A stretch of DNA of 23,494 nt from a virus, in the IMG/VR virus record IMGVR_UViG_3300042319_001780, positions 1-23,494 of that record. The stretch is one strand, 5' to 3'. The position numbers were made by a program, and so were the translations under genes. The notes below the pieces were generated by a model that made no database searches, was not told the origin of the DNA, and worked only from the letters and a program-made list of their open reading frames with translations. This document shows, one piece after another, positions 6,053 through 21,772 of this stretch (positions are counted from its first letter, which is position 1; each line of letters starts with the position of its first letter).

Positions 6053-6070
6053 ACGTTCAAATTTGAACGT
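6053..6070. repeat. 18-bp perfect palindrome overlapping the fibre stop codon
   Basis: ACGTTCAAATTTGAACGT is fully self-complementary, and its right end includes the first base of the stop codon (TTA on plus, 6070-6072). No T-run follows on either strand, so it is not a standard terminator. It could form an RNA hairpin at the 3' end of the fibre mRNA or bind a dimeric protein; its role is unknown. Confidence 0.6.
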
Positions 6071-9000
6071 TATTTTATCTTTCTTATTTCATCAATTTGT
6101 TTTTGTTGTTCCTTAACTGCTTCAATTAAGATAGCAATTAATGGCAAATACGAAACTGATAATCCATTTTCATTTTTTGATACCAATTCTGGTAAAATTT
6201 TAGCAACTTCTTGAGCAATTACTCCATAAGATTTCTTACCCCATTCTTTCCAATTAAAAGAAACTCCAGTAATTTGATTCAAAATAGTTAACGGACTAAC
6301 AATATTTTTAATATTTTCTTTCAATGTTCCATCGCTAGTAGAGTTGACTTCTACAGCGTTTAGTTGACCAGTACTAGGATTAAATGTTAATTTACTACTA
6401 CTTACATATATCGTAGCTAAGCTACCAGTAAAAATATTTGAAAGAGCAGGATAAAATGTATTATTATCAACAGTATCAGTAATTATTGATACCCCAGTAC
6501 CAGTCGCTCCAGTTAATCCAGTAGCACCAGTTGACCCAATACTACCAACACCACCAGATAATCCAGTGGCACCTGTAGCGCCAGTAAATCCAGTTGATCC
6601 ATCAAATCCAGTAGAACCGTCAAATCCAGTAGCACCCGTACTTCCTATAAATCCAGTAGCCCCCTGTAATCCAGTAGCTCCCTGTAATCCAGTAACACCA
6701 GTAGCACCTGTTGATCCAGTAAATCCAGTTGATCCATCAAAACCAGTAGCGCCGTCAAATCCAGTTGATCCAGTAAATCCGGTAGCTCCATCAAAACCAG
6801 TAGCACCAGTAGATCCAATATCACCTTGAACTCCAGTGGCACCGGTAGATCCGTCTAATCCAGTAGATCCTGTGGCTCCAGTAAATCCAGTAGCACCTAT
6901 GTCGCCCTGAACTCCAGTAGCACCAGTGGCTCCATCTAATCCAGTAGCACCAATATCACCCTGTAATCCAGTAGCACCAGTAGATCCGTCTAATCCGGTA
7001 GCACCTGTGGCTCCATCTAATCCAGTAGCGCCAGTGGCTCCGTCAAAACCAGTGGCACCTATATCACCCTGAACTCCAGTAGCACCAATATCACCCTGTA
7101 ATCCAGTAGCACCAGTGGCTCCGTCAAATCCAGTAGCACCAATATCACCCTGTAATCCAGTAGCACCAGTGGCTCCGTCAAATCCAATTGGTCCAGTGGC
7201 CCCATCAAATCCAGTAGCACCTATGTCACCTTGAATTCCAGTAGCTCCAGTGGCTCCGTCAAATCCGGTAGCACCTATGTCTCCTTGAATTCCAGTAGCG
7301 CCAGTTGATCCATCTAATCCAGTAGCACCAGTAGCGCCATCAAATCCAGTGGCACCTATGTCGCCCTGTAATCCAGTAGCACCTGTGGCTCCGTCAAAAC
7401 CAGTTGCCCCAATATCACCTTGAATTCCGGTTGCGCCAGTGGCTCCATCAAAACCAGTAGCGCCAGTGGCACCATCTAATCCAGTAGCACCAGTGGCTCC
7501 ATCAAAACCAGTAGCACCTATATCACCTTGAACTCCAGTTGCGCCAGTTGATCCATCTAGTCCCGTGGCTCCAGTAGAACCAATAAATCCAGTAGCACCT
7601 ATGTCACCTTGAACGCCAGTTGCTCCTGTGGCGCCTGTATATCCAGTAGCACCTGTATATCCAGTTGGACCCACAATAGTTCCAACATTGACCCAAAGTG
7701 TACCATCATAAACCCATAAATTACCAGTAGCTTGATCTATAACTCCATTTCCAAGTACTGCAGATGGAAATGCAGCATTAAGTGTTGTTTGTGGATTATT
7801 AGGAGGATCAACGTTTACATTTGGTACTGATCCTATTATGGAAACTGACGTACCTGCTACTCCAGTAGCACCAATATCACCTTGAATTCCAGTGGCACCA
7901 GTGGCACCGTAACCAGTAGCACCTGTGGCTCCAGTTGATCCATCTAGTCCTGTTGCGCCAGTGGATCCTTCAAAACCAGTAGATCCAGTGGCTCCGCTTC
8001 CTGTAGCACCGATGAATCCAGTGGCTCCGATAAATCCAGTGGCTCCATCTAATCCAGTAGCGCCAGTAAATCCAGTAGCACCTGTACTTCCAGTGGCTCC
8101 ATCTAATCCAGTGGCACCCGTAGAACCAGTAAATCCAGTGGCTCCGTCAAATCCAGTAGCACCTGTACTACCAGTAGCACCTGTAAATCCAGTACTTCCT
8201 GTAAATCCGGTACTTCCGGTAAATCCAGTACTTCCGGTAAATCCAGTTGATCCAGTAGCACCTGTGGCTCCAGTAGCACCTCTGAATCCAGTTGCACCAG
8301 TTGATCCAGCAGTACCACCACCTCCAGCACCCCAATATAAATTACCTAATCCGTCAGTACTGACTACTAGTCCACTAGCACCACCAGTAATAACTACATT
8401 CCCAATATCTCCTAAATTGGCACGAGTATATACTACCAATTGATTTGCCGTAGCAATATTACTACTAGAAATATTTGATGTAACATTACTAGAATCAATA
8501 TTAGTAATGTTTAATGTACTAGTCTCAACATCAAATATAAAATTACTACTACCATCTAATCCGCTTGGTATACTTAAATCAGTCCAACTAGTTCCATTTA
8601 CACCACTGATAATTACGCCGTCTGTTCCAACTATATAATATTCACCACTACCATATATACTATCAATTAAATTACTAGTTGTTCCAGTACTACTAGTAGA
8701 CCATGATGTTGCACCATTGTTACTAGTGATTTGAATTCCATTATCGCCAGCTGATACCAATGTAGGTATAGTTGATACAGTTGCCAACGTAATTGTATTA
8801 AGATTTTCAACAGTTCCACTAATTGATGATGTCCATGTTATACCATCAGAACTGACAATTACTGTACCATTATTTCCAGTTGCAATATAATTGTCACCAT
8901 CAAATACCACGCTATTTAAATTATCAACAACTCCACCATCTTGGATAATCCAATCTATTGCGTCTTCACTTAATAATATTGTACCAGCATTACCAACTAC

Positions 9001-9573
9001 AACATATATACCATTGTCTACATCATAAGCAATACCACGTAAATTTTCTAATACTCCAGTAGCCTGTAAAGTCCAAGTAATAGCATTTAAACTAGTTAAT
9101 ATTGTTCCATTTTCACCAACCGCAACATATAATCCAGTAATATCAGTATAATATACTCGTAATAAATTTTCTGTTGTTCCGCTTGTTTGTACTGTCCATG
9201 TAGTGGCAATATTACTACTTGTGATAATAGTACCATTATCTCCAACTGCAATAAATCCTAATGGTGTTGGAGTTACTGAATTTATTGGTTGATTAACTGG
9301 ACTAGTTTGATTACTGTAATTTATTCCATCTGTACTGTAAAAATATCGTAATGGTGTACCAAATATTACCCATGTACCGCTATTATAAGCAATTGTATCT
9401 AGATTATTTGTGGCCGCAAATTGAACTGCGCCTGGTGGTGGAGCCGCAGTTCCACCGGATCCTAAACTATATAGTTGAGTAAAGTTTTCATTAATCTTTT
9501 CAAACGCAAGTCTTAGAGGATCGCCATTACCATCGTTTGACGAAGCTCCAATGTTAATAATTTGTTGTGCCAT
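6070..9573 (-). CDS. Phage fibre with beta-propeller-like repeats, collagen-like stalk and C-terminal S74 chaperone
   Basis: 1167 residues, complete. Residues 1-36 carry [19 protein letters not shown] then KINENF, an N-terminal motif common in T4-like phage fibre and virion proteins. Residues about 60-335 hold seven repeats of about 40 residues around V-G-x-N-G-T-I-x-x-S followed by a TW step, which suggests a seven-bladed propeller of the sialidase/Ycf48 type. Collagen-like Gly-X-Y fills about 423-573 and 633-1026, separated by a globular module containing [20 protein letters not shown]. The C-terminal 88 residues are an S74 intramolecular chaperone: SDGTLKENI places the expected catalytic Ser at 1080 and Lys at 1085, and GVIAQEV is also typical. 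In this family the chaperone drives trimerisation and then cuts itself off before the Ser. A late promoter lies just upstream. It is probably a tail or whisker fibre; the ligand is unknown. Confidence 0.9.
8182..8253 (-). repeat. 18-bp tandem repeat in the collagen stalk of the S74 fibre
   Basis: Four consecutive 18-bp units (8182, 8200, 8218 and 8236 onward) differ at only a few bases and encode repeated GSTGFT. This is a local tandem expansion within the first collagen segment of the fibre. Confidence 0.85.
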
Positions 9574-9638: not shown

Positions 9639-9980
9639 ATGACTTATAACATAAATATTATAATGCTAAAACAACAATCTATCAGACCCATGTGTAAAGA
9701 ATGTAATAAATTACCATCAAGACCAAATGGTCGTAGTGTAAGTGGATATCAGCGATGGCATACTTTATGCAATCATTGTGCAAAATTAAAATATACCAAA
9801 AAGAAAAAAGATTCAAAGTGCAATATATGTAACTTTGAATCAATTGATAGTTGTCAATTATGTTTGATTAATGGAGAAACTATCTGCCAAAATTGTAACG
9901 CCCTCAGATTGAAAAATATCAAAAAGAGGGCGGAATTAACAGTGGATGCCACCATTGATTGGAGTAATATCAGATTGTAA
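9639..9980 (+). CDS. Small cysteine-rich zinc-ribbon-like protein, function unknown
   Basis: 113 residues with ten cysteines in five CxxC pairs: C19/C22, C44/C47, C61/C64, C72/C75 and C83/C86. The spacing suggests at least two structural zinc sites. The second half (CNICNFESIDSCQL, then CQNC) resembles the cysteine frame of small phage HNH-like proteins, but I see no HNH histidine/asparagine core, so nuclease activity is not supported; it may be a decayed relative. AGGG six bases before the first ATG supports the start at 9639; a second ATG at 9663 is possible. It runs opposite to the structural genes, and its stop abuts the stop of the minus-strand gene ending at 9981. The strand and position match the two homing endonuclease genes of this window, hinting at a shared mobile origin (inference). 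Confidence 0.7.
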   Translation: MTYNINIIMLKQQSIRPMCKECNKLPSRPNGRSVSGYQRWHTLCNHCAKLKYTKKKKDSKCNICNFESIDSCQLCLINGETICQNCNALRLKNIKKRAELTVDATIDWSNIRL

Positions 9981-11444
9981 TTAGTCTAAATCAACAACCC
10001 AACCACCAGTTTTAGAATCAAAATTAGCCATTAACGTATTACCAGATGCAAATGGAGATGAAACTTTCATAACCGGACGTCCATAATTATCTAATGTAAT
10101 GCTACCAGCTTGAACTGTCTTCATACCTAACTGTTGACCAGTTCCACTATTGATAAAGTTAACTTCAATCTCACCATTACCATAAGTTTCATTCATTTGT
10201 TTACTTTCATATTCAGGTTTACGAATATCTTTTGTTGGATAATCAATATCATCATTACGTGACTGATGATCATCAGGATCATAATCTTGATAACCTCTAC
10301 CACGACGACCTTGTTCACCCTTACGCATTGAATGATCAGTATAACTAGAATTTCTAGCTCTAGGTGTCTTTTTATCTGTTGGTGCACCTTGTTGTATTTT
10401 TCCACCACGTGCTAAGAAATCTTCTACATCACCTTCATTAAGACCAATATATGTCATAAACTTTCTACTATTAAAACGTGAATTATTACTTTCAAAAATC
10501 TTACAGTGACGCTTAGCTAAAATCTTACGATTATTTTCAGGTAATGTTTTGAGAATATCAGCTACTTGACGAAATTTGTTAAGTCTAACACCTTCTGCCA
10601 ATGCACCTTTCTTCAAATGAGCAATAAAAGATTTTAATGTTCCTTCTGGATTACTAGTCTTATATTTCTTGTAGTTTTTTGCAAAATTAGGATGTTTTGG
10701 ATCCCATTTATCATATCCTTCATCACTGTCACTGACAGATTTTTCACGAGTAGAAGAATTCCCTTCACCAGACTCTGACAATTTATCTTTACAATCAGCT
10801 ACCATTTGTTTTAATTCGGCACGATCACAATCAGGATGCATTTTACAAATTTCTGCTACAGTTTTTCCATCTTTACACATTTTTTTAATATGTGCCATTG
10901 ATGGTAATTTTCCAGTTTTAGATTTTACTGATTCAAATTGATTGCTACGTGTATTACTATCAGATTCTTCATCGTCTACACCGTTAATATTGTCCCAGTA
11001 TTCTTCTGCTTCTTCTGAGCTCAGAAAAATCGCCCCGTTGCGTCGCATCGCATTTGCAACAAAATCATCTTTCTCCATAGACATTGCTTGATTTATAAGC
11101 CAACGCTTCATAGCGCCTTCATCTAAAGTTTGTGAATTATCGTCTTCCATATTTTTATATTCAAACATGACATAATCAGCAAAAATCTTTTCTACAGTTA
11201 TACCATTTTCTCCACTAAAGAACATACCAGCTGGACCACCATCTGTAATTCCAAGTTTATCTTGAATATATGCGGCAGCGGCATCAAGTGCTTCTTCAGC
11301 TAAACTTTCTGGATCTTGATGAGTATCTTCTACATCTTCAGATACTTTCTCTTCAATACTTTCATTTAAATTAATTTTTTTACCTTGATCTACTGACTCA
11401 ATTAAATCTAGCATTGATCTCATACGTGTTTGATTGTCTAACAT
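9981..11444 (-). CDS. Hypothetical virion-associated protein, paralogue of the neighbouring 109-residue protein
   Basis: 487 residues, not firmly recognised. Residues 1-62 closely match the N-terminus of the protein encoded at 11489-11818, including MLDNQTRMR, LIESVDQGKK, LNESI and AAAxYIQD. Residues about 178-222 contain a Cys-bearing helical motif (KMCKDGKTVAEICKMHPDCD, then an MVADCKDKL helix). Residues about 290-345 are basic and helical. Residues about 350-410 are highly charged and low in complexity (RRGRGYQDYDPDDHQSRNDD). The last 65 residues look beta-rich. It lies just downstream of the capsid gene, where T4-like phages keep head genes. LIE16/S17 and LNE28/S29 fit the T4 prohead protease pattern (I/L)-x-E followed by a small residue, so an internal head protein is possible (inference). 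It has its own late promoter and an AGGA ribosome site. Confidence 0.8.
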   Translation of the reverse strand: MLDNQTRMRSMLDLIESVDQGKKINLNESIEEKVSEDVEDTHQDPESLAEEALDAAAAYIQDKLGITDGGPAGMFFSGENGITVEKIFADYVMFEYKNMEDDNSQTLDEGAMKRWLINQAMSMEKDDFVANAMRRNGAIFLSSEEAEEYWDNINGVDDEESDSNTRSNQFESVKSKTGKLPSMAHIKKMCKDGKTVAEICKMHPDCDRAELKQMVADCKDKLSESGEGNSSTREKSVSDSDEGYDKWDPKHPNFAKNYKKYKTSNPEGTLKSFIAHLKKGALAEGVRLNKFRQVADILKTLPENNRKILAKRHCKIFESNNSRFNSRKFMTYIGLNEGDVEDFLARGGKIQQGAPTDKKTPRARNSSYTDHSMRKGEQGRRGRGYQDYDPDDHQSRNDDIDYPTKDIRKPEYESKQMNETYGNGEIEVNFINSGTGQQLGMKTVQAGSITLDNYGRPVMKVSSPFASGNTLMANFDSKTGGWVVDLD

Positions 11445-11488: not shown

Positions 11489-11818
11489 TTAAAAATCGTC
11501 ATTAGGTGGTGCATCACCATTATGTTGAGCATCAACTTGATGTTCAATATACTCAACAAAAATGTCAAGTACTGTTTCAGCATTTTCGTCACGAAAATAT
11601 TCATAAGCAATTTCTTCATCTTCTTCAGATACTTCTAATGCATCTTGAATGTATCTTACTGCTGCACTAAGTGCTTCTTGTGCAAGTTGACGAGGATCAG
11701 AACCACTATCTTCAGATAATTCTTCACCAATACTTTCATTTAATTTGAGTTTTTTACCTTGATCTACTGATTCAATTAAATTTAACATTGCTCTCATACG
11801 TGTTTGATTGTCTAACAT
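11489..11818 (-). CDS. Hypothetical acidic protein, short paralogue of the 487-residue neighbour
   Basis: 109 residues, strongly acidic from residue 31 onward. Residues 1-60 align with the start of the next gene downstream on this strand (MLDNQTRMRAMLNLIES versus MLDNQTRMRSMLDLIES; shared LNESI and AA-x-x-YIQD). The similarity fades after residue about 60 and the protein ends at PPNDDF. No catalytic motif is visible. The conserved LIE/S and LNE/S steps could be prohead protease sites, which would make the N-terminus a capsid-targeting peptide (inference). It has its own late promoter at 11841-11848 and an AGGA site before the ATG. The 44-base gap to the paralogue holds that gene's promoter. 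Confidence 0.8.
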   Translation of the reverse strand: MLDNQTRMRAMLNLIESVDQGKKLKLNESIGEELSEDSGSDPRQLAQEALSAAVRYIQDALEVSEEDEEIAYEYFRDENAETVLDIFVEYIEHQVDAQHNGDAPPNDDF

Positions 11819-11928: not shown

Positions 11929-11936
11929 GATAAATA
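11929..11936 (+). promoter_or_regulatory. Late-promoter-like octamer just before the HNH gene
   Basis: GATAAATA on the plus strand ends six bases before the ATG at 11942. If used, it would give an almost leaderless mRNA. It may be a real second late promoter or a chance match in AT-rich sequence. Confidence 0.35.
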
Positions 11937-11941
11937 AACAT

Positions 11942-12730
11942 ATGAACCAATTTAACAATACAAAATATACACGATGGTACTATGGTATCATCCAAAAACG
12001 AGCCATTTTAGATAAAGATTCTCGTGGTGAAATACATCATATTATCCCACGTAGTATGGGTGGCAATGATTCACCTGAAAATCTTGTCAAATTAACTGGA
12101 CATGATCACGCTTGGTGTCATTGGCTCTTGACTAAAATGACTACTGGATCAGCCAAAGTATCAATGATATATGCCTTTAATATGATGGGTGTCTCTGGAG
12201 AACATATGGAACGTCAGTCATCATATGCTATTGTCAGAGCGTATGAGAAGAACAGAATAGAGTGGAGTAAGAATCATAGTGAAACTATGAGTGAACAATT
12301 TATAAATGGTCGAGAAATTTGGAACAAAGGTCGTAAAGAAGATCGTCCTGAAGTTTTAGCCAGAGTAAAAGAAGCGGCTCAGAATAGACCAAAATTAACA
12401 GATGAAAAATTAAAAGAAAAAGTAAGAAAGTCAGTTGACACAATGAAGAAAAATGGTACGGATAAACGATCTCAAGAAACAAGAGATAAGCAACGAGATT
12501 CTATGATAGGGTTAGTTCGTGGGCCGATGAATGACGTTCATAAGAATAAGATTGCCATATCTTGTCGTAAGCCTAAATCAGAAGGACATGGTGACGCTGT
12601 TGCTGCGGCTAATCTAGGTGTTGTTAGTATTAATAGAAACGATGTCGAGAAAAAAGTCAAACAAGATACACTTCAATCTTGGATAGAACAAGGATGGCAA
12701 CTTGGTGGTAGACCACGTAAGAAAAAATAG
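11942..12730 (+). CDS. HNH homing endonuclease
   Basis: 262 residues. The N-terminal HNH core is clear: EIHHIIPRSMGGNDSPENL, with His32/His33, Asn47 and the downstream GHDHAWCH histidines. Residues about 160-215 look like NUMOD-type DNA-binding repeats (ETRDKQRDSMIG and HKNKIAISCRKP). The C-terminus WIEQGWQLGGRPRKKK resembles tails of phage-encoded homing endonucleases. Such enzymes cut DNA of related phages lacking the gene and so spread it; the target is usually in or near the neighbouring gene. Here it lies between the capsid gene and the paralogue pair, opposite in direction, as a free-standing gene and not inside an intron. A sigma70-type promoter lies upstream and a strong shared terminator downstream. 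Confidence 0.88.
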   Translation: MNQFNNTKYTRWYYGIIQKRAILDKDSRGEIHHIIPRSMGGNDSPENLVKLTGHDHAWCHWLLTKMTTGSAKVSMIYAFNMMGVSGEHMERQSSYAIVRAYEKNRIEWSKNHSETMSEQFINGREIWNKGRKEDRPEVLARVKEAAQNRPKLTDEKLKEKVRKSVDTMKKNGTDKRSQETRDKQRDSMIGLVRGPMNDVHKNKIAISCRKPKSEGHGDAVAAANLGVVSINRNDVEKKVKQDTLQSWIEQGWQLGGRPRKKK

Positions 12731-16734: not shown

Positions 16735-16959
16735 TTACAAACCGCCGCTCTCGGCTGGTGGGGCACCATATTGTTTTCTGATGTTTTTTAAATCAATCGC
16801 TCGTTCATAACTTTGAACTTCGTTCATTTTACGAATCTTGGATATCATACCAAGTGTTAATTTGGTTTTGCGTGACTCACCCCATTCTGGTTGAGATTTA
16901 TCATCTTCAACATCTTGATATCCTTGAGGTGCATGTGAGTAAAATTCAAATAGCATCAT
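16735..16959 (-). CDS. Small conserved protein next to the portal gene, function unknown
   Basis: 74 residues. Motifs are FYSHAPQGYQ near the start, RKTKLTLGMISKIRKMNEVQ in the middle and a basic helix ending KQYGAPPAESGGL. Small proteins with an RKTKLTL-helix arrangement sit between portal and core genes in other T4-like phages, so a head or portal-vertex assembly role is likely by position (compare T4 gp67), but I cannot assign it. Two ATGs in a row allow a start at 16959 or 16956; AAAGGA lies upstream. The late promoter at 16981-16988 drives it. Confidence 0.78.
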   Translation of the reverse strand: MMLFEFYSHAPQGYQDVEDDKSQPEWGESRKTKLTLGMISKIRKMNEVQSYERAIDLKNIRKQYGAPPAESGGL

Positions 16960-16980: not shown

Positions 16981-17002
16981 TATTTATCAAATTTGATAAA
17001 TA
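16981..17002. promoter_or_regulatory. 22-bp palindrome forming two divergent late promoters
   Basis: The sequence is perfectly self-complementary. Its left half is TATTTATC (16981-16988), which reads GATAAATA on the minus strand toward the 74-residue gene. Its right half is GATAAATA (16995-17002) on the plus strand toward the GIY-YIG gene. The two octamers are six bases apart (AAATTT), so two polymerases could probably not start at once. Confidence 0.75.
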
Positions 17003-17061
17003 CTATTGTAGTTCGCGGTGATCAGACCCAACTACTCTAATGCTTATTAGGAGCAATCAGC

Positions 17062-17763
17062 ATGATTATTTATCTAGTAGTCAAAACTCACAATAAAACC
17101 GGTTTAAAATACTTATGTCAGACAATAAGAGATCCATTTAAATATAAAGGATCAGGAACATATTGGAAACGACATCTTAGAGAACATGGCAATTCTCATT
17201 CTACTATAGTAATTAAAGAATGTTTAACAAAACAAGAACTCAAAGAATGGGGAATGTATTATAGTAAATTATGGAACATTGTTGATGATGTAGATTCATA
17301 TAACAAAAAAACATGGGCCAATTTAAAACCGGAAGAAGGAGACGGTGGAGCGTCTGGAAAATATAGTTCATGTAAAAAACAAGAAGTAAAAAATAAAATT
17401 TCTAAAAGTTTAATAAATCTTGGAAATAATCATCCATCTAGAAATAGAACTTCAGAACAAACAAAAAATTTACGTGACAGAATGAGTGGGAATAATAATT
17501 TTGCAAAGAGAAAAGAAATTAGACAAAAAATATCAGAAAATAATCCAATGAAAAGAGAAGATCAAAAAGATAGACAAAGAGGAAGTAAAAATCCAGCTTA
17601 TAATTCTACTCTATTTACTTTTAAACACAAAATTACAAATGAAGTCGTGACATACACATGTCATGATTTCTGTAAAATAATTTTATCAGATAACGATAGA
17701 CCAAACATTTGCAAATTAATAAAAAACGAAGCAAAATCCGTAAAAGGTTGGATATTAATTTAA
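17062..17763 (+). CDS. GIY-YIG-type homing endonuclease
   Basis: 233 residues. The N-terminus IYLVVKTHNKTGLKYLCQT followed by YKGSGTYWKRHLREHG fits the diverged GIY-YIG-like nuclease domain of free-standing phage homing endonucleases, here with a degenerate first tyrosine motif. Residues about 95-185 contain NUMOD3-like repeats (GNNNFAKRKEIRQKISENN and NNHPSRNRTSEQTK). The C-terminus is a helix-turn-helix module of the intron-endonuclease-repeat type (ICKLIKNEAKSVKGWIL). It is more A-rich than its neighbours. It lies between the portal gene and the 74-residue gene in the opposite direction. Its stop is one base from the portal stop. TTAGGAG before the ATG is the ribosome site and a plus-strand late promoter lies at 16995-17002. 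Confidence 0.82.
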   Translation: MIIYLVVKTHNKTGLKYLCQTIRDPFKYKGSGTYWKRHLREHGNSHSTIVIKECLTKQELKEWGMYYSKLWNIVDDVDSYNKKTWANLKPEEGDGGASGKYSSCKKQEVKNKISKSLINLGNNHPSRNRTSEQTKNLRDRMSGNNNFAKRKEIRQKISENNPMKREDQKDRQRGSKNPAYNSTLFTFKHKITNEVVTYTCHDFCKIILSDNDRPNICKLIKNEAKSVKGWILI

Positions 17764-17764
17764 A

Positions 17765-19534
17765 TTATACCGGAGGGGGAGTTGCCAATGCACCTGGACT
17801 GGCAGTTTGATCATTAGCACCAACTGGAGCAGTAACTTCTGGAGCTATACCTTCTTCTCCTTCACTATCACTTTCAATATTGTCGGCAGTTTCCAAATCA
17901 CTATCAATATCACCAGTACTAATACCAACACTACGTAAATCAGAACCTTTAGCTTCTTGATCTTCTGGCTCAGATTTCTCTTCTTTCCATAATTTCTGAT
18001 TTTCTTTGATTTCTTCTTGACTTAATCCCAAGAATCTTTCCATGGCAAATCTAATACTCATATATGGTAAAGCTGCCATAGTAGTAAATGTCTGAACTCT
18101 AGATGTATCCAATTCTGATTGACGATAACTAGCAAAGTTTTGTGGTGGAGTAAAGTGAATGTCAAACAATCCACTATCAATATTAAATCCTCTCCAACGC
18201 ATAAACAATTTAAACTCTTCATTGAGTTTTTTGCTCATATAACCTTGTAATCGCTCACAATACTTATTGAATCTAAACTCTTGAATCATAGCGGTACCAA
18301 CACGACCATCACTTAATGGTGTTGGATTATCTTCTGGACCAGTTGGCAAGTAGCTACTTGGAACACGTAAACCACGTGCCAATCTATTATTGAAGTAACG
18401 TAAGTCATCAATCTCACCCAAGTTTTGTCCACCGGGCATAAGTTCTACACTAGATCCACGACCATCGGCTGTTACTGGGAAGAAATAATCTTCATTTGTT
18501 GACAATGGATTGTAAGTAGCATCAACAATACTTTGACCACCTTGAATACTTGGAATTCTACGTTGATGAATTTCATCTTTAATACGATTGACAAATGCCA
18601 TAGCCATATTACTTGGCATATTACCAACGTCAATCTTAAAAATTCTACGTTCTGGTGCTCGTTGAACACGATAGATCAGAACCGCATCTTCTAACAATTC
18701 TTTTTGTTTATAAACTTTGAAAATATTTTCTAATACACTTTGACCAAATGGCCAATAGCGATCTAGACCTTCTGTCAATGATAAGTGTACAACATGTTTG
18801 GCATCAATTGCCATTTCATTAACACCTAAACTAAAACGTGTACCTGTTGTACCATATGGTTCATTTGGTACAGTATATGAATATGGTGCACTATATCCAG
18901 CAGTTGGTGGTTGTGCTTGAAAATCTGTACTGGTCTTTTCTGCTACCGTTAGATTTTGTAAGTTTGGATTGATATCTTTAACTACATATTGTTCTGGTAA
19001 TTTACCTGCACTTTCGTTTACAATAACTTTAACTACTTTAGTTGGATCAACCCAAAACAATTTGAATGTTTCTGGATCACGTAGAAATACTTGATCACCA
19101 TATTTTACAGTGTTTCTAAATATTTTGAATGCTCTGACATCCATTTCATTTAATTTACACCATTGTTGTAATTGTTTACCAATCAACTCTACTTCAGTTT
19201 GTGTTGGTTCACCATTAAAGTGTATATCAAATGGAGTTTTGTTATGTTCATTTAACTGTGTAGAAAATTCACTTAAAATATCTAAACATCCATTGATTTC
19301 TGGATCACAATCCATCATTTCATATTGATTATATCGTTCAATACGATTTGGATGACCAGTATATACTTCTGGTAAACGACTTTGATAGTTTCTAAAGGCA
19401 AAATTATTATCCCAACCACCTGTTGGTGATTGATTCATACCAGCTCCGCCATTCCAAGAACCTTCGTTACTGTTGGCTCCTGAAATTGGACTTAGTGATC
19501 CGTGTTTATTAGTAAATTTTTTCTTGTATGACAT
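17765..19534 (-). CDS. gp20: Portal vertex protein, T4 gp20-like
   Basis: 589 residues (T4 gp20 has 524). Strong family motifs: RIERYNQYEMMDCDPEINGC, FKIFRNTVKYGDQVF, RAPERRIFKIDVGNMP, ELMPGGQNLGEIDDLRYF followed by NNRLARGLRVPSSYL, and ALPYMSIRFAMERFLGLS. The dodecameric portal starts head assembly, is the DNA channel for packaging and connects head to neck. The last 70 residues are acidic and Pro/Ala-rich and look like a disordered extension. A late promoter lies at 19555-19562 and a GATGAG ribosome site before the ATG. The first portal bases follow the stop of the preceding tape-measure-like gene by only 30 bases. Confidence 0.96.
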   Translation of the reverse strand: MSYKKKFTNKHGSLSPISGANSNEGSWNGGAGMNQSPTGGWDNNFAFRNYQSRLPEVYTGHPNRIERYNQYEMMDCDPEINGCLDILSEFSTQLNEHNKTPFDIHFNGEPTQTEVELIGKQLQQWCKLNEMDVRAFKIFRNTVKYGDQVFLRDPETFKLFWVDPTKVVKVIVNESAGKLPEQYVVKDINPNLQNLTVAEKTSTDFQAQPPTAGYSAPYSYTVPNEPYGTTGTRFSLGVNEMAIDAKHVVHLSLTEGLDRYWPFGQSVLENIFKVYKQKELLEDAVLIYRVQRAPERRIFKIDVGNMPSNMAMAFVNRIKDEIHQRRIPSIQGGQSIVDATYNPLSTNEDYFFPVTADGRGSSVELMPGGQNLGEIDDLRYFNNRLARGLRVPSSYLPTGPEDNPTPLSDGRVGTAMIQEFRFNKYCERLQGYMSKKLNEEFKLFMRWRGFNIDSGLFDIHFTPPQNFASYRQSELDTSRVQTFTTMAALPYMSIRFAMERFLGLSQEEIKENQKLWKEEKSEPEDQEAKGSDLRSVGISTGDIDSDLETADNIESDSEGEEGIAPEVTAPVGANDQTASPGALATPPPV

Positions 19535-19564: not shown

Positions 19565-21772
19565 TTAAGCCATTGTTGCTTGCATTTTCTTTTTAGTCAT
19601 TGAGTTACTTGATTCTAGTAAATCAATTAAAAGAGCAAATTTATCATTAAGATTCATAGACATATTTTCTATATGTTTATTATCTTGAGTTGCAATATTC
19701 AATGATCCTGGTAATGATCTTTGAGAAACATTTGTTCCTTTGTCAGATTGATCGGATTCATTTGTATTTTGTACAATTCCACCGGTGTTAGCTGCAAAAC
19801 CAGTATCAGATATTAATTCAGACTGAGGTGTGGCTGAGGGAGATTGCGGTAAATTATTTTTTGGAGCAACAGATGTTGCCGCAACAGTTGGTTTACTTGT
19901 TGAGCCAGTAGATGCACTGGAGTTTGTCGCAGATGATGTTACTGCCGATGCTGCTGTTGGAGCTGCAGGTGATGTTACTGTCGAAGCTACTGCAGTAGAT
20001 GGAGTTATTTGAGTTGTTGATGAAGTTTTTGGTTGAGTTGGATTATTTTTTTGATATTCTTCTATCTGTAATCTAGTTGTTTCATCAAAATCATTTATAT
20101 TTTTTCTTTTTTCTTCTATTTCATTGGCATAATTTTTTATTTTTAAATTATGTTCTTGTTTTTTCAATTCTGCTAATTTTTCGTCATACTTTTTTAAAAG
20201 TTTTTTTGATTCATCATCAACTGAAGTGCCCATATTAGTAATCAAAGATTCTAATATATCTTTTTCTGTTGGTGGTTTTAAATTTCTAATTTCTTTTTGA
20301 ACACTGTTTAATTCTCGCTGAATTTCCAAAGATTTTGGTCCTCCTTTTCCAACCATCTTAGCTAATTCATCCATAAAATCTTTCATTGTATCGCTCATAA
20401 CATTCATCAATGTTGCAACGGTTTCACTACTAGTAGCTAATTGTTCCATTCTAATACTAGTATCTCTCATGTATGTTTTAGTATCTGCGATTTCAGTATT
20501 TAAACCAGTAGATTCTGCTGCAATCTTTTTATTTTTATCTAATTGTTCCTCATATTGTTGTTTAGTTAATCCATCTTTTTCAGTGATGAATTTTTGCATT
20601 TGAGTGTATACTGCATATAATGGATTATCTGAATTTATTACGCCGACTGTTTTTTCTGCATAAGATACCATTCTTTTATACGTGTCAATCGTTTTTTGAA
20701 CTGCCTGAAACTCGTCTATTTTTCCAGATGTTAAATCTTTTGTAAGATTCATCATATCGGTTCCTGCTGCTGCCATCTGACTAAAAAAATCCTTTTCAGC
20801 TTGAGTTCTTCCTATTCCAAAATTAGACAATCCTCCTAAAGTCATTTTTGCTAGTTCTGGACTAGATGCATTTAAAATATGTAAGAAATTTGTTACTGAC
20901 TTTTTAACTGGTTCAGATAAATCTGTTCTTCCTTGTATACCAAATACATATTCAGCACTATCCATTAATTTTTTATTATATTCATCATGTTGTCTGATAG
21001 ACATTCCAGTTAAATCTGCTAATGTTTTTAGCTCTAATGCATAATTTTCAGTTATTTTTACAGCATCATCGTCAATTTTAATTTGAGTGCCCTGATATCT
21101 TTGTCTTTGATTTAGTGCACTAATTTGAAATTCTGTAAAATCAGTTGCACTAATTCCTAATCTTTGCATTCGTTTTCTTGTTTCTCTACTATGAATTCCT
21201 AAGTCTTCAAGCTTAGCTCTACCGCCCGCAGCTGAACCTCCAAGTAAAGCGATATCTTTTGAACTTTTAGTGAACAATGTTTCCATTTCTGAAATACTCA
21301 TTCCTAATGAAACTCCAGCTTTTTGCATATCAGTAAAACTAGAAACAACTCCATTCTGACTCATTTTTTCAAATGAAGCATATGCTTTATCCATTGATCT
21401 GATCAAATGAGCCGCAACAGCGCCAGTTGCTTCGGAAGCTGCTCCAAAAAATGCTCCAATTGGACCAAATATTCCCAAAAAATTTCCCATAGTGCTAGAA
21501 ACTAACTCTACAATTGCCGCTAATGGTTCAAAGCTTGAGCCGCTATTCAATAAACTTTTAGTGAATGTCCCAAACTGAGCAGTTGCGTTTTTGGTAACTC
21601 CCTTAAGTTTTTTAAGCATTTCGGCCGATTCTTCTTCTTCCGCTGCAACTTTTGCAGCATTTGATGTTAAAATCAGATTGGTGTTAGAATTTTTTAATAA
21701 AATTTTATTAAAACTAGATAACTCACTAATAGTTTGTTCTAATTCTGAATTAAAATTGTCAATTGTGGACAT
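19565..21772 (-). CDS. Tape-measure-like tail protein
   Basis: 735 residues. The N-terminal 70 residues are coiled-coil-like. A hydrophobic Gly/Ala-rich stretch at about 83-123 (LAAIVELVSSTMGNFLGIFG) resembles the membrane-active segment of tape measure proteins. Residues about 125-580 are mainly helical with heptads, and about 590-665 is an Ala/Ser/Thr/Pro low-complexity linker. The end carries NTGGIVQ and a terminal helix (LNDKFALLIDLLESSN), an echo of the C-terminus of the adjacent 21791-23494 protein. It lies between that protein and the portal. A tape measure or a tail-interior protein is the best call, but T4 gp29 identity is not shown. A GAGAA site precedes the ATG, and the gap to the upstream gene is 18 bases. 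Confidence 0.6.
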   Translation of the reverse strand: MSTIDNFNSELEQTISELSSFNKILLKNSNTNLILTSNAAKVAAEEEESAEMLKKLKGVTKNATAQFGTFTKSLLNSGSSFEPLAAIVELVSSTMGNFLGIFGPIGAFFGAASEATGAVAAHLIRSMDKAYASFEKMSQNGVVSSFTDMQKAGVSLGMSISEMETLFTKSSKDIALLGGSAAGGRAKLEDLGIHSRETRKRMQRLGISATDFTEFQISALNQRQRYQGTQIKIDDDAVKITENYALELKTLADLTGMSIRQHDEYNKKLMDSAEYVFGIQGRTDLSEPVKKSVTNFLHILNASSPELAKMTLGGLSNFGIGRTQAEKDFFSQMAAAGTDMMNLTKDLTSGKIDEFQAVQKTIDTYKRMVSYAEKTVGVINSDNPLYAVYTQMQKFITEKDGLTKQQYEEQLDKNKKIAAESTGLNTEIADTKTYMRDTSIRMEQLATSSETVATLMNVMSDTMKDFMDELAKMVGKGGPKSLEIQRELNSVQKEIRNLKPPTEKDILESLITNMGTSVDDESKKLLKKYDEKLAELKKQEHNLKIKNYANEIEEKRKNINDFDETTRLQIEEYQKNNPTQPKTSSTTQITPSTAVASTVTSPAAPTAASAVTSSATNSSASTGSTSKPTVAATSVAPKNNLPQSPSATPQSELISDTGFAANTGGIVQNTNESDQSDKGTNVSQRSLPGSLNIATQDNKHIENMSMNLNDKFALLIDLLESSNSMTKKKMQATMA

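Follow-up and report, generated by a model that had tools for sequence, protein, structure and literature searches.

Two predicted late promoters back to back where a homing endonuclease gene meets the head genes of a T4-like phage

Here we describe a perfect 22-bp palindrome, TATTTATCAAATTTGATAAATA, at positions 16981-17002 of a viral contig of 23,494 nt (IMGVR_UViG_3300042319_001780, the whole of which is called here the window), made of two divergent GATAAATA boxes. Very probably, it arose when a GIY-YIG endonuclease gene inserted in antisense orientation brought its own late box and leader module beside the promoter of a gp67-like head gene. In this explanation, a free-standing gene would have entered between the portal stop codon and the gp67-like late promoter, carrying a module composed of a late box, 5 nt and a two-hairpin leader that begins at +1 and holds the Shine-Dalgarno sequence in its second hairpin. 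The two boxes would now stand back to back with 6 bp between them, giving the palindrome; a polymerase with a gp55-type sigma would use the old box to transcribe leftward into the head gene and the cassette box to transcribe rightward, the endonuclease being read as a late gene. With the box centres 14 bp apart, room for two polymerases at once is unlikely. Initiation, its lateness, competition and the action of the leader are the parts of this explanation that we infer.

The palindrome and the predicted promoter of the head gene

On its minus strand, the window carries the head and structural genes of a T4-like phage, in the order portal gp20, a 74-aa gene at the gp67 position, a 275-aa gene, the prohead protease, a gp22-position gene and gp23. 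Judged by the portal protein, its nearest named relatives are jumbo-type phages such as PA5oct and Atu_ph07, and a search of the region's DNA against named phages gave no match. Further along the minus strand, a collagen-repeat tail protein (6070-9573) ends in a Peptidase_S74 chaperone domain. At 9639-9980, a third plus-strand ORF is flanked by genes on the minus strand; its product has several CxxC pairs that by eye resemble a zinc finger, the start of the ORF contains a CATAAATA box, and no Pfam or PHROG match was obtained. Beside an HNH endonuclease gene, the pair of ORFs at 9981-11444 and 11489-11818 records a partial gene duplication: the 109-aa product and the N-terminal 92 residues of its 487-aa neighbour share 57% identity, and the two ORFs have a similar promoter and leader region.

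The palindrome lies between a plus-strand ORF (17062-17763) and the gp67-like gene, is laid out as TATTTATC-AAATTT-GATAAATA and equals its own reverse complement, just as the first-pass annotation had described it. Even palindromes with arms of at least 11 did not appear in any of 60 first-order Markov simulations of the window, which itself holds two, the other being an A/T-only stretch at 21692-21713. A reading as a transcription terminator was discarded, given that no T run follows the palindrome. The octamer GATAAATA is present in nine copies in the window against 1.85 expected, a number reached in none of 100 shuffles, and, judged on its sequence, it is an 8-bp box of the T4 type (TATAAATA-like). 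Its position is also fixed, since five copies on the minus strand are each followed, after 21-23 nt, by the ATG of an ORF on that strand. Furthermore, the gp55 family (phrog_234) was found in each of the 14 phage records tested; one of them, G001, is 109 kb long and has an identical endonuclease, and from it the presence of gp55 was deduced for the window, a contig too short to include it. Box position and the gp55 of relatives together give good support to the earlier proposal of one late promoter for each of the two genes, as predicted promoters, and the cassette is probably expressed late by a gp55-type polymerase.

The left box GATAAATA (16981-16988, minus strand) is the predicted promoter of the 74-aa late head gene (16735-16959, minus), with a start by the T4 rule at about 16975. 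This gene was assigned by position, between gp20 and gp21 as T4 gp67, and by a PA5oct homologue annotated as a structural protein by mass spectrometry, which bears out its previous description as structural. On the other side, the stop codon of the portal gene gp20 (17765-19534, minus; Pfam Portal_T4, 3.5e-100) abuts that of the endonuclease, 1 nt away. A compact portal/gp67 junction with no insert is found in 66 of 80 portal relatives, so that the site is occupied in some phages and empty in others, as is characteristic of homing endonucleases. An ATAAATA-type forward box is present at 65 of the 66 compact junctions and the mirror box at none of them; the forward box usually overlaps the portal stop codon or follows it immediately. 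Counting only distinct insert-free junctions, 59 of 60 have the box, which in 51 is exactly GATAAATA. These insert-free loci have portal proteins 68-80% identical and include some near-duplicates; a search for an isogenic pair with and without the insert found none. Because the box is kept in nearly all insert-free relatives and its mirror in none, the left half can be read as the ancestral promoter of the gp67-like gene. The comparison is the one the first-pass annotation had proposed, and it came out as that annotation anticipated, the right half being missing and the left retained where the endonuclease is absent. A second insertion site, studied in relatives of the L117 left gene, was set aside as a replicate comparison that is not clean, as a native divergent box lies about 40 nt away in insert-free relatives.

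Two further observations concern late boxes outside the cassette. In 32 of the 60 distinct insert-free junctions (loci L009-L088), the late box and the ATG have exactly 5 nt between them, a spacing shared by the HNH gene of the window (11942; region 11929-11942). The T4 rule would place the start on the A of the ATG, which points to possible leaderless late mRNAs, usually devoid of a Shine-Dalgarno sequence. In turn, locus L256 carries upstream of a gene start at 1501 a native hairpin palindrome, TATTTATCACTTGGTCACCAAGTGATAAATA, with two divergent late boxes and no cassette leader.

The endonuclease cassette and its leader

The plus-strand ORF at 17062-17763 encodes 233 aa and, by its predicted fold and family matches, is a homing endonuclease of the GIY-YIG type. 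The predicted structure has a mean pLDDT of 81.5, rising to about 97 in the N-terminal domain, and its best match by Foldseek among solved structures is the GIY-YIG catalytic domain of I-TevI (1mk0, probability 0.99, E 0.03; 1ln0, probability 0.84, E 0.33). Matches in BFVD are GIY-YIG and SegD-like proteins, and a Pfam scan of the protein gave no match. The GIY-YIG assignment comes by way of the predicted fold, and the name of homing endonuclease formerly given to this gene is upheld both by the I-TevI match and by its family.

From its 5′ end, the cassette is ordered as late box, 5 nt, two-hairpin leader and endonuclease ORF. The right box GATAAATA (16995-17002, plus), which is part of the leader model R1, is the predicted promoter of the cassette and, by the T4 rule in which the box spans -13 to -6 (PMC2988020), sets the start at 17008. 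This is the first base of hairpin P1/P1b (GUAGUUCGCGGUGAUCAGACCCAACUAC, 17008-17035, plus), which has an inner extension and is followed on the same strand by a conserved linker UCUAA (17036-17040), by hairpin P2 (TGCT-TATTAGG-AGCA, 17041-17055), which contains the Shine-Dalgarno sequence, and by a conserved ATCAGC just before the start codon (17056-17061). These elements were derived from two MAFFT alignments of leaders, A2 and A5, one of 60 and one of 30 sequences. Both alignments support the two hairpins, with covariation of 0.250 against 0.085 after shuffling in A2 and of 0.574 against 0.223 in A5; in each case none of 500 shuffles reached the observed score, and structures slid along the alignment had far lower covariation. 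In A5, a set that includes copies recovered with a covariance model and not with the pattern, both sides have changed in 11 of 13 pairs. A Shine-Dalgarno-like sequence is found in the region of the second hairpin in 104 of 107 leaders.

The box and leader sequence was first seen with relatives of the endonuclease, at other sites (L037, L097) and at the same junction (L083). A sequence pattern for the leader then matched at least 120 stretches in viral contigs, a set seeded by exact pattern from the window locus and its relatives, which by itself accounts for part of the conservation at the patterned bases; the copies in G014 and G009 came from the covariance model and are free of such a bias for P1. 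Upstream of the leaders that the pattern recovered, ATAAATA occurs within 25 nt in 102 of 121, and exactly 7 nt before AGTTCGCGG in 90 of the 121; the strict motif is absent from those 25 nt in the other 19, most of which show an NTAAATA variant. Moreover, the first base of hairpin 1 coincides with the start site of the T4 rule in 93 of 106 leaders, a fixed spacing that favours a genuine promoter at the right box. Since the same box and leader are found at other loci, mostly lacking a local reverse box, the right half is best regarded as a promoter belonging to the cassette and not as a copy of the local one.

As to the genes served by this leader, among 96 downstream ORFs 58 matched PHROG homing endonuclease family 314 and 38 matched family 655, with Pfam hits to NUMOD3, several HNH families and GIY-YIG, so that in viral contigs the leader precedes unrelated GIY-YIG and HNH endonucleases. 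In G014 and G009, an ORF that is endonuclease-like by eye follows 20 of 20 leader copies; when ten of these ORFs were scanned, nine matched PHROG families that include endonucleases and the tenth was of the type of the window gene. Some leaders, for instance the L148 copy, are followed by broken ORFs and retain promoter and leader. A single genome holds up to 13 copies, and one cultured carrier was found, Rhizobium phage RHph_I1_18 (L224), where the leader is present once and the endonuclease is not that of the window. On a MAG contig (L223, JAPOUQ010000026.1, 6087-6186, minus), a leader whose P1 has the compensatory change GAAGTT/AACTTC stands before a protein that is TnpB-like by eye. The leader was searched for in T4, PBECO4, Phosso, XaC1, PA5oct and Atu_ph07 and found in none of them; leader-bearing loci had no Rfam match at the gathering threshold or at E 0.5, and the window itself gave only sub-threshold chance matches.

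Altogether, we are inclined, on a modest balance of the evidence, to see in the late box, the two hairpins and the UAUUUA element a new class of portable late-expression leader, acquired or exchanged by unrelated endonucleases (GIY-YIG, HNH and perhaps TnpB-like), in which the 5′ end of the mRNA would be the first base of a hairpin, with possible consequences for mRNA protection or the control of translation. More precisely, the leader may protect the mRNA, tune translation or block it early in infection. Selfish endonuclease genes need to be expressed without harm to the phage, and here the means of expression would be a standard module that travelled with the gene. Should a single leader indeed be common to unrelated endonuclease families, then regulatory modules travel independently of the enzymes, and the evolution of these elements becomes open to test. 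From a practical perspective, the covariation of the leader and its fixed start offer an annotation tool for endonuclease genes missed by Pfam and PHROGs, such as that of the window.

Insertion, symmetry and alternative readings

The cassette occupies the portal/gp67 junction in four lineages, namely the window, L083, L041 and L148, with centre-to-centre box distances of 14, 17, 15 and 13 bp, respectively. Promoters separated by 13-17 bp probably exclude each other, considering the normal size of a polymerase footprint. Only the window and L148 have perfect palindromes, with different spacers, and because two of the four lineages lack one, the symmetry is incidental rather than the conserved feature: it results from the divergent orientation of two boxes of similar sequence. 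At most empty junctions, 0-3 nt lie between the portal stop codon and the box, or the two overlap, and an insert placed just upstream of the box therefore preserves both the portal gene and the head-gene promoter. Indeed, neither neighbour was damaged by the insertion, which fell within the short stretch of free sequence separating a stop codon from a late promoter. The junction itself is an insertion hotspot. Some relatives (L022, L055, L057, L070 and others) carry different inserts there, 207, 596 and about 862 nt long, whose main ORF runs with the head genes and has no match to the endonuclease. Additionally, an insert of about 1.2 kb (7232-8439), which could be an intein or an intron, interrupts the portal gene of L148 (6522-9536).

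Other explanations of the palindrome can be weighed on these data. In a phage as A+T-rich as this one (GC 0.39), single octamers are expected by chance at the frequency given above, and a palindrome deprived of promoter function could be imagined; nevertheless, the excess of boxes over shuffled sequences, the retention of the left box in relatives and the locking of the right box to the leader make this extremely unlikely. The identity of the two octamers and the symmetric spacer would also suit an inverted duplication of the gp67 promoter made at the moment of insertion. However, dozens of other sites have this leader with a box in front of it at the same spacing, a reverse box lies within 60 nt in only 18 of 106 cassettes, the boxes of L083 differ from each other (AATAAATA and GATAAATA) and the spacers differ across all four lineages. 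The leaders at other sites largely refute such a duplication, which we consider very improbable. The first-pass annotation had left open whether the endonuclease arrived with the right half or created it as a mirror copy of the local promoter; the finding of the box within the leader module at distant sites sustains the former and speaks against the latter. Somewhat less remote, though still improbable, is that the palindrome serves a dimeric repressor as its operator, the endonuclease itself being a candidate: the 22-bp perfect symmetry covers both boxes, and autorepression of I-TevI by binding over its own late promoter is established (PMC2988022), but the symmetry is not kept in L083, L041 or most cassettes and the sequence of the spacer is not conserved. 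A weaker operator may exist within the box.

A different role for the right box, additional to that of promoter, is suggested by the conserved UAUUUA(U) element inside the start of the ORF (17067-17074, plus), which read on the minus strand is a third local copy of GATAAATA. In 99 of 107 leaders UAUUUA starts 3-5 nt after the first base of the start codon, against 1 of 107 in a later control window, and because this holds in all three reading frames, the element would be kept through selection on the nucleic acid. Its interpretation as a reverse late promoter is not favoured, G at -13 being present in 57 of 106 forward boxes and in 26 of 101 reverse elements. By analogy with T4 I-TevI and segB and with Aeh1 mobE, the box, as the 5′ strand, might pair with UAUUUA in read-through RNA to form a stem, P0, hiding the start codon, an arrangement known from T4 (PMC2988022). 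Besides the position of the element, native box/UAUUUA pairs form more stable duplexes than swapped pairs do (-5.52 against -5.02, p 0.002, in a test that ignores relatedness). On the other hand, the variable -12 pair does not covary, its 66 A-T pairs being close to the expectation under independence, and in the window sense read-through is not expected, as the flanking genes are antisense to the endonuclease. We regard P0 as a tentative proposal, rather doubtful on present evidence. The preferred reading, that of a promoter brought by the cassette, is compatible with it.

Relation to known late promoters and endonuclease leaders

A late promoter and an RNA hairpin before a phage homing endonuclease gene are already known. 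A leader from +1 shared by unrelated endonucleases was found neither in Rfam nor in the literature searched, which included few subscription papers, and may be described elsewhere; likewise, the literature on the leader sequence or on divergent late promoters yielded nothing relevant.

T4 late promoters, served by gp55, gp33 and gp45, consist of an 8-bp A/T box with no -35 element, and the window box is likewise an A/T box of 8 bp, in a phage whose relatives encode gp55. The differences are that its first base is G and not T (GATAAATA), a position, -13, that varies in T4 late boxes too, and that two boxes stand back to back, 6 bp apart; in T4, both strands are transcribed late at several sites (PMC2988020).

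In the T4 genes for I-TevI and segB, and in mobE of Aeh1, a late promoter lies directly upstream and an RNA structure surrounds the ribosome binding site (PMC2988022), as predicted for the window gene. The hairpins of I-TevI and mobE block early translation (PMC2988022). The inhibitory structure in T4 and Aeh1 requires sequence upstream of the late start (PMC2988022), whereas the leader of the window type begins at the predicted +1 and, unlike those cases, has one stereotyped form common to unrelated endonuclease families at many sites. A further example is seg43(25) of Aeromonas phage 25, where a stable hairpin immediately precedes an exposed ribosome binding site, as here, although it is a single case, for which the review describes neither a leader family nor a link to the late start (PMC2988022). 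Finally, T4 segD is, like the window gene, a GIY-YIG endonuclease gene set antisense in the capsid gene region; no promoter of its own has been identified for it (PMC2988022), whereas the window gene has a predicted one.
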